Source: Natronorubrum sediminis
GTDB lineage: Archaea; Halobacteriota; Halobacteria; Halobacteriales; Natrialbaceae
DNA length: 64,000 nucleotides
Direction of reading: 5' to 3'
NCBI RefSeq assembly: GCF_900108095.1
Contig: NZ_FNWL01000001.1
Location: 1,116,001-1,180,000, forward strand
A program made the position numbers and the translations under genes. The notes under the pieces are model-generated. The model saw nothing but the letters and a program-made list of their open reading frames with translations. It was not told where the DNA came from and did not search any database. Below, piece after piece: positions 23,181 through 49,171 of the stretch; the stretch's first letter is position 1, and every line of letters begins with the position of its first letter.

Positions 23181-23300
23181 GTTGACATCCTCCCCGCCCT
23201 AAAGGGCGAGGATTCCCGAGCGTTGGGATATTACGGTTCGCAATCCGCCTGTTCGCCCGGTGCGAAACGCCCCGAGGTTTGATTGAACAAGTAGGCTACT
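23181..23300 (-). ncRNA. candidate TnpB guide RNA (omega/reRNA) region
   Basis: In TnpB systems the guide RNA overlaps the 3' end of tnpB and runs through the right end, its guide being the flanking DNA. Here the 3' part of tnpB, the hairpin CGCCCT-AA-AGGGCG and the outer GGATGTCAA would be the scaffold; the guide would begin near 23180 and continue toward lower coordinates (minus strand, CAATGGCTTGCGTG...). Extent is inferred from known systems. Confidence 0.35.
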
Positions 23301-24499
23301 GGCCGTGCCAAACGACCGTTACTCATATCCCCCATAGGAGGATTCTGAGTTATCTTTCTCCGGATATTCACCGCACCATTCACGTCCGCGTTCATCGTCA
23401 CACCACACGGCTCACACACGTACAACCCACGCTCCACACGATTCGCATCACGCTTCCGTCCACAACACGAACACGTCTTCGACGTATCTTGCTCCGACTT
23501 CCGGTCAACGAGTATACCGTGTTCTTCTGCCTTGTATTCGAGCAACGTGGTGAATCGGTCGAACTCCCATCCGTGGAGTTTCTTGTTCCCACGCTTCCCC
23601 CAATTTCGAGACTCGCCGTTTTCGTCCTCTCGAATCCTGCTCAAGTCACCGATAGCGATGCGACCGACCTCGTGGTCGATACACTGCTCAACGACGTGTT
23701 TGGCAAGTGCGTGGAGGAAGTGATTTTTCCGCCGAGACAATTTCTGACGAGCGCGAAGCGCACGTTTGGAGGGGCCGTTCTCTCCTTCGGTATCGTACTC
23801 GTCGCGGGTGAAGTAGTGCTTGTCTTGCTTCAGTACGTTCCCCGGATACAACTCAGCGTCACCATCATCGTAAGCGATGGCGAGGTAGTTCTTGATTCCG
23901 AGGTCGATGCCAGCGGTGTTGTCGCCGGGGGCGTCCTCGGTGAGGATTTCGACCTTGCAGACGAGGTGGAGTTCCCAACGGTCGCCGTTCCACACGGCTC
24001 TGACTTGTTGGATATTCTTCACGACCACATCGGGTCGCGTCTCGTATTTTACGAGGATGAAATCTGAGCGGTGGTTCTTCAGGTTGAATCCCTTGCTCAG
24101 ACGGAGTTTGTTGTGTTTGGAATCGTGTTTGATACCGTTTTGTTTCCACGTTACAGTGGAGCGTGGGTGTTTGTCGCCATGTTTGCGGTATCCGGGTGGA
24201 TTCGCGTCTGTGTCGCCTTTTTCACGCTTTTTGAACCAACCGTTGAACGACTCAGCAAGCTCTTCTAGAACTCGCTGACTTGACTGAGAATGTAGGTCAC
24301 TGTATCGTTCGTGGTCTTTTAATTCGCGCTTGAGGTCGGCTTCAGAGGGAATCTCTCCGGTTTCATCCCATTCTTGTTGGGTGTGGTAGCGGGCGACGTT
24401 CCACAGTTTGGATGCTGAGTGTCCGCAGTCATCGAGGTCGTCACTCACTTGGGAGTGGTTGACGATTTTCGCTCGATATGTGCGGGTTGTCTCCAGCAT
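23231..24499 (-). CDS. tnpB: TnpB RNA-guided nuclease
   Basis: 422 residues from the ATG at 24499 (MLETTRTYRAKI); an upstream in-frame Met at 24571 lies in non-coding-looking AT-rich DNA. Visible are the helical N-terminal region, RuvC-I with Asp199 in GIDLGIKN, the zinc finger (C343, C346, C362, C365) and RuvC-III with Asp372 in NADVNGAVNI. The RuvC-II position, usually Glu in a hydrophobic-E-D-L motif, is Gly284 (IAIGDLSRI). It is either a rearranged active site or weak/inactive. Less acidic and with more AT-rich codons than neighbours, as expected for a mobile gene. Confidence 0.9.
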   Translation of the reverse strand: MLETTRTYRAKIVNHSQVSDDLDDCGHSASKLWNVARYHTQQEWDETGEIPSEADLKRELKDHERYSDLHSQSSQRVLEELAESFNGWFKKREKGDTDANPPGYRKHGDKHPRSTVTWKQNGIKHDSKHNKLRLSKGFNLKNHRSDFILVKYETRPDVVVKNIQQVRAVWNGDRWELHLVCKVEILTEDAPGDNTAGIDLGIKNYLAIAYDDGDAELYPGNVLKQDKHYFTRDEYDTEGENGPSKRALRARQKLSRRKNHFLHALAKHVVEQCIDHEVGRIAIGDLSRIREDENGESRNWGKRGNKKLHGWEFDRFTTLLEYKAEEHGILVDRKSEQDTSKTCSCCGRKRDANRVERGLYVCEPCGVTMNADVNGAVNIRRKITQNPPMGDMSNGRLARPVAYLFNQTSGRFAPGEQADCEP

Positions 24500-24507
24500 C
24501 TGACTGT

Positions 24508-24527
24508 GTTCATAAGTACTTATGAAC
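24508..24527. promoter_or_regulatory. 20-bp perfect palindrome before tnpB
   Basis: GTTCATAAGTACTTATGAAC reads the same on both strands and ends 8 bases before the tnpB start codon; a TATA-like TTAAATATAG lies about 15 bases further upstream. It could be an operator on tnpB expression or a left-end structure. No neighbour obviously encodes its binder. Confidence 0.5.
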
Positions 24528-24800
24528 GGTTCTGTGTTAAATATAGTGGTTGAGTGTGGAATATCCGGCAATGCAGTTATCGGTGGTCGGTGTCATTCAG
24601 TGACGGCGCGTATCCCCGCCGTAAACGGCGAAGTTTTGCGCCTGTTCAGTAGATAAGATGTACAGACAGATAGGTGTGGAATAATCACAGACGGAGACGG
24701 GAACGGCGTACGACGCTCGCTCGAGTCGATCGGTGACGAGCGTCTCGCAGGAACCTACCTCGAGCGAAACGACCAACTTGTCTCCCGGTGTCGTCGACCC

Positions 24801-42336: not shown

Positions 42337-42549
42337 TCACTCCGTCGGCGAGTCGGCTCTCGGCAGTGAACCACGTTGGGAAGCGTAGTAGAAGATGACG
42401 AGAAAGCCGGCCATCGGGACGATGATGCCCAGTTCGTACATCTCCGGGTTCTCGAGGTCGAGTCGTTTCGCGTCGAAGTGGACCACGATGGCGGCCGGGA
42501 ACTGGAGGAAGAGCGCACTGGCGAGGAGAATCATAACCAGATCGGACAT
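42337..42549 (-). CDS. small two-helix membrane protein
   Basis: 70 residues: helix 1 (LVMILLASALFLQFPAAIVV), a short cytoplasmic loop with HFDAKRLDLENPEMYELG, helix 2 (VPMAGFLVIFYYASQ), then a polar tail. A TATTTATC box about 27 bases before the ATG supports a leaderless start. Found in haloarchaea; unknown role. Confidence 0.65.
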   Translation of the reverse strand: MSDLVMILLASALFLQFPAAIVVHFDAKRLDLENPEMYELGIIVPMAGFLVIFYYASQRGSLPRADSPTE

Positions 42550-42655
42550 ACGAGCGAGGACGGAGTTGACGGATAAATATCTTGTTCAGCGACGGACGAC
42601 GCGTCCACGGGCGCGCCGCGAGCGAGAGTCGCGGACGTACCCTGAGAACTGGGTG

Positions 42656-43768
42656 CTATTGATACGCCGGCAACCGACCGGAGCGATCCGATCCGTCGAC
42701 GAACGGCAGTTCGGTTACCGTCGCCGGTACCTCCTCGCCGTCGACGCGAACCGTGAGTTCCGTGCTCTCGAGGTCGTACTCGACGAACGCGAGCGCGACG
42801 ACCTCCTCGAGCAGCGGGCTCTCGCCGCCGCGGGTGACCTCACCGACCGACGCGTCGCCGTCGAAGACTGCCGCGCCCGATTCCGGAACCGCGGCCGCCT
42901 CCGGATCGCCGTCCGAGCCCTCGAGCGTCAGGCCGATCAGCCGTCGACTCGGCTGTCCCCTATTCTCGACGCGGGAGACGACCTCCTGGCCGACGTAACA
43001 CCCCTTCTCGAAGTCGAGGGCGACTCGCAAACCGAGGACGTTCGGAATGGTGCCCTCGAGTTCGGTCTCGAAGAGGGGCGTTCCGGCCTCGAGTGCGAGA
43101 CTCTCGAAGGCCCGGTAACCAAAGGGGGCGGCGTTGAGGCCGTGATTGAGGAGGGTATCGTAGACGGCGTCGGCGTCGTCGGCCGCACAGATGACCTCGT
43201 AGCTCTCCTCGCCGGTGGGCGCGTCGGTGCGGATGACACTGACGCCCTCGTCGGACATCGTCCCCCGGACGAACGAGTAGTGCTGGTCCGGCGAGCCAGC
43301 ACCGTTGAGGACGCTCGCGACCTTCTCCGTGGCTTTCGGGCCGTGAATGCCGAAGACAGCGAAGTCGTCCGTCCCGACGCTGATCTCGACGTCCTGAATA
43401 AAGACCTTCTCCGACCACTCCTCGGCCAAGGGCTCCGCCTTCGACGGCGGCGTAAAGAGCAACAGTCGCTCACCGGCGTTGTAGACGGAGAGTTCGATCT
43501 CGATTCGACCCTGCGGATCGAGAACCAGGGCGTAACAGCCCTGGCCGTCCTCGTCGGGCACGCGATTCGAGACGACGTTGTCGACGTACTCGAGGCGGTC
43601 CTCGCCCTCGACGACGACGATTCCGTAGGCCATCTCGAGCAAGCCAACCCCGTTTCGGACCGCCCGGTGTGTTCGGTCGGGACGACCGAAGTGCTCGACG
43701 ACCGTTCTCCCGTCGCGCTCGCCGAAGGTAGCCCCGTGATCGGTATGAATGGACTCGATAACGCTCAT
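42656..43768 (-). CDS. GcvT/YgfZ-like folate-binding protein
   Basis: 370 residues of the aminomethyltransferase fold. The YgfZ signature K-G-C-Y-x-G-Q-E is present (about 265-272), and the C-terminal beta barrel follows. In bacteria YgfZ helps repair or load iron-sulphur proteins; GcvT cleaves methylene groups from glycine. The signature points to YgfZ, but the GcvT-like N-terminal region (HTDHGATFGERDGRTVVEHFG) keeps both possible. The ATG at 43768 lies 39 bases after the DUF6432-like gene, likely one operon. Confidence 0.8.
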   Translation of the reverse strand: MSVIESIHTDHGATFGERDGRTVVEHFGRPDRTHRAVRNGVGLLEMAYGIVVVEGEDRLEYVDNVVSNRVPDEDGQGCYALVLDPQGRIEIELSVYNAGERLLLFTPPSKAEPLAEEWSEKVFIQDVEISVGTDDFAVFGIHGPKATEKVASVLNGAGSPDQHYSFVRGTMSDEGVSVIRTDAPTGEESYEVICAADDADAVYDTLLNHGLNAAPFGYRAFESLALEAGTPLFETELEGTIPNVLGLRVALDFEKGCYVGQEVVSRVENRGQPSRRLIGLTLEGSDGDPEAAAVPESGAAVFDGDASVGEVTRGGESPLLEEVVALAFVEYDLESTELTVRVDGEEVPATVTELPFVDGSDRSGRLPAYQ

Positions 43769-43807
43769 GACTCGTTCGAGGGGCCAGATCCCCACAGGCG
43801 TTTCGAT

Positions 43808-44107
43808 TCAAAAGGGCAATCGCTCGCGGAGCCATTCGCCGATAGTTTGGGTTTCCTCCTCGTCGGTCGGCACGTCCGGGACGACGCGGTCGGCGGGCTT
43901 GATCACCGTCTGACTCGTGTTCGATTCGACGCTGATCAGTCCGTCGTCGTTCAACGTCGCGAGTGCCGACTCGAGTTCGTCGATATCGACTTCGACGTCG
44001 GCACGGAGTTCGAAGACCGTCATGCCGTCGTCAACACGATCGACGAGGGCATCGAGAATCGCGACCTCCGTCTCCTCTCGATCCCGATACTCCCGCTTTG
44101 CTCTCAT
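43808..44107 (-). CDS. small winged-helix-like protein (DUF6432-like)
   Basis: 99 residues: an N-terminal basic start (MRAKREYRDREETEVAILDALVDR), then a helix-turn-helix-like DGMTVFELRADVEVDIDELESALATLNDDGLISVE, ending with an acidic stretch and TIGEWLRERLPF. The shape is that of a compact wHTH DNA-binding protein. The start at 44107 excludes a long unrelated frame upstream. It precedes the GcvT/YgfZ gene and is divergent from the zinc-ribbon gene, sharing a 141-base promoter region. Confidence 0.7.
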   Translation of the reverse strand: MRAKREYRDREETEVAILDALVDRVDDGMTVFELRADVEVDIDELESALATLNDDGLISVESNTSQTVIKPADRVVPDVPTDEEETQTIGEWLRERLPF

Positions 44108-44248
44108 CCAGACGTTCCTTCGACGACCAGGGATTTGATGGTTGTCGTTTCGGCGGGCGAATACATGCAAAACCAGTTGCGCGGTCGTCACGAATTGAAT
44201 TTCTGGAGGCAGTACGTTTTTTATGGCGTGACTGGGTACGATGGGATA

Positions 44249-45244
44249 ATGGTCCTGCGATGTTCGCTGCTCGGGCACGACTACGGGGAGATCGACGTCG
44301 AACGCGAGCGCGAAGAACGTGGCAGTGAGGTCGTCGTTACCGTCCAGGAGTTCGAAGAGTGTGCACGCTGTGGCGACCGCCACGTTATCAGCGAGAACAC
44401 CGAAGTGACGAGCCTCTCTGCCCAGACGGCCGCCGACGCACTGCCCGACGAATACGACCTCGAGTCCGAAACGCCACCGACGGAGAGTCCGTCCGAACCA
44501 CCGGCCGAGACGGCCGTCGACGCTGGCGACGCCCGCGGTGACATCGGCGGTGACGTCGACGATGACGCCGCCGAATTCATCGACGCAGACGCCGGCAGCG
44601 AACCGGCAGCGCCGACAGCCGCCGGGAACGATCCGGCAGCGTCGGCGGAAACGCCGGAGTCGACGGACGAACTGGACGTCCCGACCGACGAAAACGGTGA
44701 GCCGATAACGGACGACGGCGAAATCCTCGAAGACGAGGAGCCGTTGCCGGACCGAGACCGAGAACACGGCGAGTGGCCCGACTCCGACGACGTCGGTCCA
44801 CCCGTCGGTGCCGAAAACGAGCCAAACGAGTGGCCCGACGACGGCCCTGTAGACGGCGCTGGCGACGAGAGAGACGGGGACGACACCGCCGACGTCGACG
44901 TCGACGCCACCGACGACGGAATCCTCCTCGGTGAGGACGCTGGCGACGAAAGCGAGTCCCTCGCCGCCGCGAGCGCCAGATCGACCACCGCTTCGACACC
45001 GACTGCGTCGGATTCGAATCAGACGTCTCAGAGCGACGAACCCGAAGCGACTGGTTCTGGCATCGAACGGGCAGGAAGCGCGCCGACTCCCGGCGAGAGC
45101 CCAACAGCGGAACGTGACGACGTCCCGACCGAATTCTACTGTCCGAGTTGTGCGTATGTCGCGGCCAGCGACCGTGCGTCGCTTCGTGCGGGCGACATCT
45201 GCCCAGAGTGCAAGAAGGGGTACCTCGGCGAGCGAGAACGCTAA
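44249..45244 (+). CDS. zinc-ribbon protein with long disordered acidic linker
   Basis: 331 residues. An N-terminal C-x-x-x...C-x-x-C region (VLRCSLLGHDYG, EECARCGDRH) and a C-terminal zinc ribbon (YCPSCAYVAASDRAS, ICPECKKGY) are joined by about 220 residues of Asp/Glu/Pro/Ser-rich low-complexity sequence (about 70-290). This is the layout of haloarchaeal DUF7093-like proteins. The ATG at 44249 follows a GTTTTTTATGG box by 28 bases (leaderless); a far longer open frame upstream is an antisense artefact. Role unknown. Confidence 0.7.
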   Translation: MVLRCSLLGHDYGEIDVEREREERGSEVVVTVQEFEECARCGDRHVISENTEVTSLSAQTAADALPDEYDLESETPPTESPSEPPAETAVDAGDARGDIGGDVDDDAAEFIDADAGSEPAAPTAAGNDPAASAETPESTDELDVPTDENGEPITDDGEILEDEEPLPDRDREHGEWPDSDDVGPPVGAENEPNEWPDDGPVDGAGDERDGDDTADVDVDATDDGILLGEDAGDESESLAAASARSTTASTPTASDSNQTSQSDEPEATGSGIERAGSAPTPGESPTAERDDVPTEFYCPSCAYVAASDRASLRAGDICPECKKGYLGERER

Positions 45245-46358: not shown

Positions 46359-46444
46359 ACTCAACCGTTCGTGAAGCGGCCACAAAATCGTTCCCCGAGG
46401 CGAGTCCGAAACGGCTAATATCGAACCGCGACAGCACTCGAGCA

Positions 46445-46615
46445 ATGGACCTCACTGCATTCGCGGTCGCGACGCTGAGTGCACACGTCGGATTCGCGAT
46501 TCTCGTCACCGCCCACGCCGTGGTGACGGAACAAGACGCGGGGAAGTGGCCCTACATCACGCTCGCGCTCGGTCTCGCGGGCGTCGCCGGATACTTCTTC
46601 TACGACGAGTGGTGA
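46445..46615 (+). CDS. tiny two-helix membrane protein
   Basis: 56 residues: two hydrophobic helices (TAFAVATLSAHVGFAILVT and YITLALGLAGVAGYFF) separated by AHAVVTEQDAGKWP, ending YDEW. It follows a TAATATC box by about 25 bases, a leaderless start. Its composition is normal for the host. Function unknown. Confidence 0.65.
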   Translation: MDLTAFAVATLSAHVGFAILVTAHAVVTEQDAGKWPYITLALGLAGVAGYFFYDEW

Positions 46616-46825
46616 GCGGGTCGCGGTTGCGGGCTGTAAAGCAAGTGGAGTCCTCGAGTGTATCCGTTAGATGCATGCCCTTGTGGCCGCATCGCTCCAT
46701 CAGAATTCATCAATCCCCACTTTCCGGGTTGTATCGTTTACTGCACAGAGTGAAAGTACGGCGATGTTCGTGGTCAACTAGAAAACGTAGCCACAATTCT
46801 ACCATTGGGACTCGGAACATCCGGT

Positions 46826-47083
46826 ATGAATGCAAAGAGGAGGGAAAAAGATCTAACACTCCGATTTAACGGAGGGAAATCTGAGGAGAATCTGGTCTCC
46901 CTGATCCTCGCCCTTCAGATTTCCTTGGGAGGTATGCTCGCGGTTATCTTTGTGGAGTGGCTGTTCCTGGTCGGTGTTTCTCACACCTCTCCACATGGGG
47001 AAGGTGTGTTCTACCTTGAGACGATTTCTCTCCTGACAACGATAGCGTTGGCAGTGTCCCTCCTCAATATGCTGTTCGAGTAG
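46826..47083 (+). CDS. small membrane protein in AT-rich patch (paralogue A)
   Basis: 85 residues with a basic start (MNAKRREKD), LRFNGGKSEENL, and two membrane helices. Codons such as AGG, AAA, CTA, TTT and AAT are used much more than in the neighbours, and the region is visibly AT-richer, as for laterally acquired DNA. Its LRFxxGxxExxL...ILAxQ pattern is shared with the following gene at 47149. Unknown function. Confidence 0.55.
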   Translation: MNAKRREKDLTLRFNGGKSEENLVSLILALQISLGGMLAVIFVEWLFLVGVSHTSPHGEGVFYLETISLLTTIALAVSLLNMLFE

Positions 47084-47148
47084 GTCAACCTTTTCTTATT
47101 CATCGGAGTGTCGACAACACTTAAGACAGTCATAAATAGTTGATAGTC

Positions 47149-47376
47149 ATGTCCATCGACCAGACAGATCCAAAGCTACGGTTCGAGGCGGGACGATTCG
47201 AGAGTTCGATTCTTACAGCAATATTGATGGCGCAATTGTTCCTAGTGACAGGGGCAGCGGTAGGTTTCTTCGCAGCCCTATTCCTGTCCCTTGACCTATG
47301 GTATATACTCGTCATTGTTCCATCTATTGTCATCTTATCGATAGCTGCTTACCTTCTCAGCTTCCTGTACGAGTAG
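47149..47376 (+). CDS. small membrane protein in AT-rich patch (paralogue B)
   Basis: 75 residues: KLRFEAGRFESSILTAILMAQLFL, then two helices ending AAYLLSFLYE. It aligns by eye with the preceding gene (LRF, G, E, L-ILA-Q, and an LL-x-x-L-F/Y-E terminus) so the two are tandem duplicates. ATA, CTA, TTG and CTT codons are unlike the host's. A possible AT-rich box (CTTAAGAC) is about 27 bases upstream. Confidence 0.55.
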   Translation: MSIDQTDPKLRFEAGRFESSILTAILMAQLFLVTGAAVGFFAALFLSLDLWYILVIVPSIVILSIAAYLLSFLYE

Positions 47377-47379
47377 TTG

Positions 47380-47544
47380 CTACTCACTCTCCTCGGATCC
47401 GGAGATGGTGAAGCCACTCCGCTTAGTTTGGTCGAATTCTTCCAGATCGATTTCGCTGACGGATTTCGAAGCACCACTGATTCGCTTTCTTGTCGTGATA
47501 CCTGTGTGACCTATACTAATCGCTAGGAGGGATAGACCCCCCCA
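47380..47544 (-). pseudogene. headless ORF remnant, possible membrane-protein C-terminus
   Basis: From a TAA at 47545-47547 to a TAG at 47380, 54 codons on the minus strand stay open with no ATG, GTG or TTG start: LSLLAISIGHTGITTRKRIS then VSEIDLEEFDQTKRSGFTIS. It reads as one hydrophobic helix followed by an acidic tail. A run of seven G on that strand (47536-47542 region) at its 5' end could mark a frameshift. It is in the AT-rich patch. Confidence 0.3.
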
Positions 47545-47582
47545 TTACCTGAAGAGTTCAACGAAGCCGTAATCGGAGGAAA

Positions 47583-47607
47583 GAAAACTCGAGTGACTCG
47601 TCACTCG
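47583..47607 (-). terminator. hairpin plus T tract after pitA
   Basis: An 8-bp stem (CGAGTGAC/GTCACTCG, 47590-47597 and 47600-47607) with a 2-base loop is followed on the minus strand by AGTTTTCTTT. It lies 11 bases after the pitA stop, as for an intrinsic terminator-like signal; archaeal termination chiefly needs the T tract. Confidence 0.5.
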
Positions 47608-47617
47608 CGCGTCTCAC

Positions 47618-49171
47618 TCAGGCGAGGAAGACGTGTCGCGGTCGGTCGACGAGAACGTCGCGGCCGAACTCGACAGCGTCGGCGAACGCGTCGCTGCGGA
47701 AGAACTGCATGGCGTCTTCGCGGGAGTCCCAGCGGCTGGCGATGAACATGTCGTTTTCGTCCTCGCGGTTGACGAGCAGGTCGGTCTTTCGGTGGCCGTC
47801 CATCTCGGCGAGCAACCCTGCGGCGTCCTCGAACGTGCCGGTGAAGTCCGAGCGGTGGTCGGGCTTGACGGTGTAGAACATGCCCATCGTGCCCCAGGAG
47901 TCCGCCTCGTCGTCTCCAGCTTGTCGAACGACCTCGGGGAGGTCGGCGAGGAATCCGGCGGCCGTGTTTGCGGCTCGCTCAGTCTCCCAGAGGCTAACGA
48001 CGGCATTTTCCCCACTCTCGCCACCAACCTCGCTTGGCTGATAGACCGCCGTCTTCACGTGCGTATCGTAGTGATCGAAGTTCGTCCGAAGGCCGTCGAC
48101 CTCCTCGAAGAGTTCCTCCACGTCGGCCGCGGAGTAGAGCACGACGGCGTGGACGTCCTCGCCGTGGGGCTGGCCCGCGTAGATGTCCATATCCTCGAGT
48201 TCGCTGCGGATTCCCGACTCGTCATCGCCGTGTGCGTCGGAATCGCCGTGGTGACTCGAGTCCGATTCTCCGTGGTGGCCGCTGTGTGAGTGACCGCTCG
48301 AGTCGCCGCCGTGGTGGCCGGCGTCCGAATCGCCGTGGTGACCGCCGTGACCCTCGGCGTGCGGATGCGCGTCGCCAGCGCCGTCCTGGGGAATGCGTTC
48401 GCCCTCGAGGAAGGGACGGAGGTTCTCCGGTGGGAAGCGCCGCCCCGAGAGGAACCGCCCGAACTCGGCGAAGCGGGAACTCGAGGGATCGAAGCGCATC
48501 TCGTAGAGCAGTTCTTTCACGTCGGTCGGGTCGTCGGCGAAGAGGGTGACGCCCCACTCGAAGTCGTCCAGACCGAGGCTGCCGGAGATGATCTGCGTGA
48601 CGCGGCCGGCGTACTCGCGGCCGATGTCGCCGTGACTCGAGAGGTGCTCGGCGCGCTCGTCGAAGGGGAGGTCGTACCAGTTGTCCTCGGGGCCGCGGCG
48701 CTTGTTCATCGGGTAGAAGTTGACGAACTCACTGTCGGGAATCTCGGGTTTGAGCCGCGATTCGATGTAGCGAGCGATGCCAGTGTCTTCGACCTCCGCG
48801 TCGTCGTCGAAGTAGTCCTGAGACATGTATCCCGAGACCTCCGTCACCGAGACGTAGGAGTCGGTTCGCTCGGTGAACTCGGCGAGTGCCGTCTGCTCGA
48901 AGCGGCGCTCGAGCGCGTCGACGTCCTCGAGCGTCGGCCGGAGGTGGAGCACGAGGAGGTCCGCCTTGTGGCCGAGGATAGCGAACGTCGCCGAGTCACC
49001 CTCCTCGGCGTCCGCGACGGATTCGGCGGCGGAGAGGTACTCGATACCCTCCTCGATGGCTCGCGTGCGACGACGCTCGGGGGCGTCGCGCCAGGCATCC
49101 CAGTCGATCGACCGGAAATCGTGCAGGACGTACCAGCCCTCGTCGGTCTGTGGCGGCTGTCGTCGTTCCAT
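47618..49171 (-). CDS. pitA: PitA: HemQ/chlorite-dismutase-like domain fused to ABM domain
   Basis: 517 residues. Residues about 1-260 are a chlorite-dismutase/HemQ-type haem domain (GWYVLHDFRSIDWDAWR, YMSQDYF, VNFYPMNKRRG, RDPxxSSRFAEFG-like). A histidine/glycine/serine linker about 65 residues long follows, then a C-terminal antibiotic-biosynthesis-monooxygenase (ABM) domain (FYTVKPDHRSDFTGTFED). This fusion is the haloarchaeal PitA known from Haloferax; related HemQ proteins oxidatively decarboxylate coproporphyrin to haem. Divergent from the PadR gene. Confidence 0.88.
   Translation of the reverse strand: MERRQPPQTDEGWYVLHDFRSIDWDAWRDAPERRRTRAIEEGIEYLSAAESVADAEEGDSATFAILGHKADLLVLHLRPTLEDVDALERRFEQTALAEFTERTDSYVSVTEVSGYMSQDYFDDDAEVEDTGIARYIESRLKPEIPDSEFVNFYPMNKRRGPEDNWYDLPFDERAEHLSSHGDIGREYAGRVTQIISGSLGLDDFEWGVTLFADDPTDVKELLYEMRFDPSSSRFAEFGRFLSGRRFPPENLRPFLEGERIPQDGAGDAHPHAEGHGGHHGDSDAGHHGGDSSGHSHSGHHGESDSSHHGDSDAHGDDESGIRSELEDMDIYAGQPHGEDVHAVVLYSAADVEELFEEVDGLRTNFDHYDTHVKTAVYQPSEVGGESGENAVVSLWETERAANTAAGFLADLPEVVRQAGDDEADSWGTMGMFYTVKPDHRSDFTGTFEDAAGLLAEMDGHRKTDLLVNREDENDMFIASRWDSREDAMQFFRSDAFADAVEFGRDVLVDRPRHVFLA

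Follow-up and report, generated by a model that had tools for sequence, protein, structure and literature searches.

Two adjacent small genes in an AT-rich patch of a haloarchaeal chromosome, here called A and B, encode two-helix membrane proteins that are homologous on sequence criteria, and that belong to an undescribed, mainly Natrialbaceae protein family. The general kind is an ordinary one, that of mobile accessory membrane genes, and the most surprising feature is a promoter that looks private to the family. Our best explanation, which we consider probable, is that these are mobile, promoter-bearing accessory hairpin membrane proteins, most likely protecting the host.

An AT-rich insert with two homologous genes

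The window, i.e., the whole 64-kb stretch of DNA that was analyzed, is part of a 3.78-Mb haloarchaeal genome (G000). About 1 kb of it contains two open reading frames, A and B, between a gene for a 57-aa protein and a convergent chlorite dismutase/ABM gene. The features, in window coordinates, are:

46444-46615, plus strand: left flank, gene for a 57-aa small membrane protein; the DNA aligns in 9/9 congeners
46664-47509, no strand: AT-rich insert to which nothing corresponds in the closest congener (G001), where the alignment breaks off at 46663 and restarts at 47510
46791-46803, plus strand: weak counterpart of the promoter element upstream of A, CCACAATTCTACC, in the correct register, with a low score (0.9, rank 105 of 127,910 positions)
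46826-47083, plus strand: gene A, 85 aa, two-helix membrane protein of the long-loop type, LRFNGGKSEE ... LLNMLFE
47090-47101, plus strand: T-rich tract just past the stop of A, read directly from the sequence
47112-47131, plus strand: family-specific promoter element of B, CGACAACACTTAAGACAGTC, at -37 to -18 from the ATG
47149-47376, plus strand: gene B, 75 aa, two-helix membrane protein of the short-loop type, LRFEAGRFES ... LLSFLYE
47380-47544, minus strand: start-less open frame at the right edge of the patch, LSLLAISIGHTG...EIDLEEFDQTKRSGFTISGSEESE stop, with an acidic tail
47618-49171, minus strand: right flank, chlorite dismutase-like (HemQ-type) and ABM protein, convergent with the left flank and present in 10/10 genomes of the genus

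The patch at 46664-47509 has a GC content of 48.2% vs 62.7% for the window, the third lowest value among 1264 segments of equal size, with the only lower ones overlapping the patch itself. Third-position GC is similarly displaced, at 0.60 in A and 0.55 in B vs 0.85 in the downstream haem gene and 0.84 in the gene of a site-2 protease. A previous sequence-only reading had described an AT-rich patch with codon use unlike its neighbors, two ORFs of 85 and 75 residues and no tRNA, and our measurements agree on each count; the 64-kb window holds no tRNA gene at all. The open frame at 47380-47544 may represent the C-terminal scrap of another gene, possibly one for a membrane protein, and searches with it returned partial matches too weak for naming. 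Elsewhere, the other AT-rich dip of the window harbors a stand-alone TnpB-like protein (OrfB_IS605 and Cas12f1-like TNB domains; 23231-24571, minus strand). A 949-aa open frame at 42395-45244 (plus strand) runs antisense through real minus-strand genes, and is a high-GC artefact in its first part.

The flanks are adjacent and A and B are absent at the site in 9/9 congeners, in line with the previous proposal that the patch is foreign to its location. Five congeners (G004, G006, G007, G008 and G009) display a short gap of about 85-180 bp. G001, in which the flank gene product is 99% identical, carries about 300 bp of unrelated DNA vs 846 bp in the host, with no sequence shared between this replacement and the A/B pair, while G002 has a sodium:dicarboxylate (SDF) symporter gene at the same position. 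As other congeners carry unrelated inserts here, the convergent intergenic site is an insertion hot spot for unrelated small inserts. The simplest reading is that the host lineage gained the insert once it had separated from the nearest sequenced species, the alternative being that A and B were lost in G001. An AT-rich 182-aa ORF lacking a Pfam match is found at the site in G003 and G005 (L094:3034-3582, minus strand, and L095:3453-4001, plus strand).

How the insert arrived is not marked by the usual signatures. Neither terminal inverted repeats nor a target-site duplication flank it, and transposon or MITE cargo was consequently rejected. There is no integrase at the site and no copy of the tRNA-Gln att core (see below) anywhere in the window, so that with tRNA gene, att duplication and integrase all missing, the window copy does not classify as a tRNA-targeted integrative element. 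An Rfam search gave no match.

The resemblance of A and B, also proposed from the sequence alone, is confirmed to exceed chance. BLASTP aligns them with an E-value of 1e-5 (38% across 42 residues), and the Smith-Waterman score of 63 exceeds those of all 5000 segment-preserving shuffles of B, the highest of which is 61. Moreover, a profile of 21 relatives from which both were excluded recovers A at 2.4e-20 and B at 4.6e-19, with the next best of 626 window ORFs at 0.25, and alignments and held-out profile alike place the pattern L-R-F-x-(A/G)-G-x-x-E ... L-x-x-L-(Y/F)-E in both. AlphaFold2 models (mean pLDDT 74.5 and 75.5) and hydropathy congruently predict two helices in each protein, as had been suggested. 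Fold searches with the model of A against the PDB and viral structures yielded nothing at E <= 0.001, an uninformative outcome, for two-helix hairpins weakly match everything.

The family, its history and its promoter

The family consists of two-helix membrane proteins of 72-100 aa that share an N-terminal LRFxAGxxE box, a glutamine in helix 1 and a C-terminal LxxLYE, with the exception of a subgroup of one genus without the N-terminal box. Profile searches recovered members in 29/125 genomes of the host's family, including a third one in the host genome (C1:495453-495701), whereas a first scan of genome contigs with B alone as query gave no match. Beyond the host's family members are rare (G183, G188 and a Haloferacaceae MAG). 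Sequence searches of Pfam, NCBIfam, PHROGs, PADLOC and the PDB returned nothing convincing, bearing out the earlier impression that the proteins resemble nothing known. The Pfam family T4SS_pilin (PF18895) was hit below threshold (E 0.0013) by 2/32 members and not by A, and membership was rejected as no match exceeds the family cut-off. Weak matches to 614-666 aa proteins of other families cover the hydrophobic part only and were discarded as noise.

Most members are single genes, and many are surrounded by ordinary chromosomal genes, away from any integrase. In seven pairs of close orthologues from other parts of the family, dN/dS ratios are 0.11-0.35 (Nei-Gojobori), and the genes are thus maintained under purifying selection. 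One member, in G028, is degraded to two fragments.

The family tree pairs B with the lone gene of another species, G004 (98/98 support), and leaves A without a close partner. A recent tandem duplication, implied when the pair was described as tandem-duplicated, is thereby rejected; given the grouping of B with the G004 gene and the isolation of A, the two rather appear to descend from an old duplication or to be separately acquired members. The order of a long-loop gene followed by a short-loop gene recurs in the window and in two plasmid pairs. The second genes of pairs do not form a single supported clade, and the tree therefore offers no support for one ancestral pair.

Upstream of most members, yet not all, lies the element CGACAAC-N-CTTAA at about -37 to -24 from the ATG, with weaker conservation downstream of it as far as about -18. 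With a matrix built without A and B, the region upstream of B is the best of 127,910 window positions, scoring 25.2 vs 11.2 for the next. We also constructed a held-out promoter model leaving out all sequences of the host genome and of its sister G001. At E <= 0.1 in 125 genomes, this model matched 13 of its own training members, the B promoter as the only site in G000, and a single non-family site, in G081, which is why the element looks private to the family. Judging from its spacing, the B element probably contains the BRE/TATA of a leaderless promoter. The T-rich tract at 47090-47101 may act as an archaeal terminator between A and B. Since B has its own promoter, a single operon of A and B is unlikely, and the tract fits with this arrangement.

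Mobile contexts of the relatives

Several members are found next to tRNA genes. Between the third host copy and the 3' end of tRNA-Gln(TTG) lie about 295 bp, which include an exact, att-like 24-bp duplicate of this tRNA end. Members on the side of tRNA-Gln are also present in G005, G028 (the broken copy) and the MAG from another family (Haloferacaceae), while in G001 a low-GC island of about 8 kb, with GmrSD and two DNA methylases, separates tRNA-Gln from the family member. This G001 island (L144:9945-18498) is a defence island, in which the restriction enzyme is of the GmrSD type and both DNA methylases are N6/N4 enzymes, and the same site in the host genome holds the family gene only. Members reside within 0.7 kb of tRNA-Thr in G009 and of tRNA-Tyr in G137, and the G070 member belongs to a tRNA-Thr island that also encodes a tyrosine integrase and a primase-like protein, and has a degraded second copy beside it. 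At locus L066 a copy of the tRNA-Tyr end is found beyond the gene, although with 6 mismatches in 25 it is only suggestive. A tRNA-like sequence with matching acceptor and T-arm halves, not called by ARAGORN, lies beside the G142 member (L113:1310-1403). Aggregated, four loci have a tRNA within 1 kb vs about 0.8 expected (Poisson P about 0.008), an estimate of our own based on about 27 independent loci and an assumed 50 or so tRNA genes per 4-Mb genome.

Three Natronosalvus plasmids carry tandem pairs. The 58-kb circular replicon NZ_CP100358.1 (L077, L119) is deposited as a Natronosalvus rutilus plasmid. It has genes for terminase, portal-MuF, major head and minor tail proteins and is therefore an extrachromosomal tailed provirus, in which the pair is flanked by the portal(-MuF) gene block on one side and an ATPase gene on the other. 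The remaining two plasmids have the pair in a common block of about 785 bp, in otherwise different local surroundings, and the pair hence moves as a cassette between plasmid contexts; the proteins of these pairs are 89% identical for gene 1 and 58% for gene 2. IMG/VR and INPHARED contain no virus with a family member, where the single-protein IMG/VR scans reach close relatives only, and the direct viral link accordingly comes from the one replicon. The former proposal of a plasmid or virus remnant hence came close, with the relatives on plasmids and in a tailed provirus matching it, and with tRNA islands to be added to the list of carriers.

Function and likeness to known systems

We favor the view that the family spreads on mobile DNA, by means of tRNA-targeted islands, plasmids and at least one tailed provirus, and that singles or pairs then remain behind in host chromosomes. 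The window insert would have entered the convergent hot spot once the nearest sequenced species had branched off, or else been lost there, and most members, B included, would be expressed from their own leaderless promoter of the family-specific kind. Each protein is predicted to span the cell membrane as a helical hairpin whose two tails lie in the cytoplasm, from where the conserved LRFxAGxxE tail may dock on a membrane or envelope partner. Binding of this partner could block entry or assembly of rival viruses or plasmids, i.e., superinfection exclusion, and we propose that hosts keep the genes because of such protection against competing elements. While mobile accessory proteins of a protective kind are a probable reading, the specific chain from hairpin topology through partner binding to exclusion is one that we infer tentatively. 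Exclusion of competitors is the commonest benefit of those small membrane proteins of proviruses, plasmids and islands that hosts retain. The haloarchaeal temperate viruses SNJ1 and PhiH confer superinfection resistance (PMC4284463). The present family is encoded by three Natronosalvus plasmid replicons, one of them the tailed provirus; the window copy is chromosomal, and no halovirus record matches.

The main rival to the protective reading, a real contender if an unlikely one, is that of domesticated small regulators, which arrived on mobile DNA and now regulate a host transporter, protease or lipid stress without any relation to viruses. Such a role is congruent with the purifying selection on members that occupy fixed chromosomal sites in sister species, with the location of most members alone between housekeeping genes and with the conserved promoter of their own. 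However, an extremely patchy presence in 29/125 genomes is unusual for a core regulator, and the sites differ by species, with integrases, plasmids and a provirus alongside. More speculative, and rather improbable in our judgment, is a haloarchaeal membrane system of paired or single hairpins with a private promoter type, carried by temperate viruses and plasmids for rival exclusion or exit, where specificity shifts via partner swapping or rapid divergence.

It is highly unlikely that the family as a whole represents holin-like proteins for viral lysis or egress, with pairs serving as holin and antiholin and chromosomal copies being leftovers. The two-helix hairpins are of holin size, a tandem pair is situated beside the head-gene block of the tailed provirus, and known holins are lacking in haloarchaeal tailed viruses (PMC4284463), leaving a holin role possible for the viral pair. 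The chromosomal singles fit badly, as genes under selection and with promoters of their own are ill-suited to encode a lethal pore. Furthermore, the family is absent from other sequenced haloviruses, PHROG holins gave no match, and no endolysin-like neighbor was noted: a search for a lysis cassette (endolysin/spanin) found the 57-aa and HemQ-type genes adjoining the window pair and portal-MuF and ATPase genes adjoining the provirus pair.

A two-gene toxin-antitoxin or bacteriocin-immunity system, which we deem very improbable, would explain two small adjacent genes as well as the faster divergence of one partner that the 89% vs 58% identities of the Natronosalvus genes 1 and 2 might reflect. 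Yet both genes are homologous and each has its own promoter (weak for A), PADLOC gave no match, and most genomes have one gene only; an obligate pair of two different proteins does not agree with the prevalence of singles and the homology of the pair members. The sequence-only suggestion of a bacteriocin/immunity or holin pair, taken as obligate, is not supported, because most members are single genes under purifying selection and with separate promoters, and as a whole that interpretation is partly supported, being right on foreign origin and wrong on recent duplication, with the function unproven. Neither of the conditions named beforehand as refuting it applies: the two proteins are significantly similar, and relatives do not have them at this site. 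Finally, it is hardly credible that the ORFs are spurious or in decay, lying in AT-rich DNA that encodes nothing. Foreign codon use, the two G028 fragments and the possible gene scrap at the right end of the patch are outweighed here, for the held-out profile reaches an E-value of 1e-20, the frames are intact and their motifs complete, orthologue pairs are under purifying selection and the promoter is conserved.

The present work defines a conserved, selected and previously undescribed haloarchaeal protein family, enriched at mobile-element sites and with a recognizable promoter, the members of which are testable candidates for the poorly known processes of virus exclusion or cell exit in haloarchaea. 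In addition, the gap beside the HemQ-type gene emerges as a repeated landing site of unrelated small inserts in one genus.

Compared to known systems, the family has the two helices and roughly 80-aa length of T4SS_pilin PF18895, in contrast to which no conjugation genes adjoin the inspected members and no signal peptide is evident. With holins and pinholins it shares the small size, the two-helix hairpin and occasional tandem pairs, and it differs by its position outside lysis cassettes and by singles kept in chromosomes. The members beside tRNA-Gln, -Thr and -Tyr, with att-like duplications and some integrases near, resemble the tRNA-targeted integrative elements and fragments of haloarchaea (archaeal tyrosine-recombinase elements, PMC8371274), whereas tRNA, att and integrase are all missing around the window copy, which is flanked by two protein genes. 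Another likeness is to the superinfection-exclusion and lysogenic-conversion proteins of temperate phages ('morons'): although the family is without sequence relation to any described one and most copies are outside recognizable proviruses, here too small membrane proteins with their own promoter and an optional presence are carried, in at least one case, on a provirus, and are kept by their hosts.
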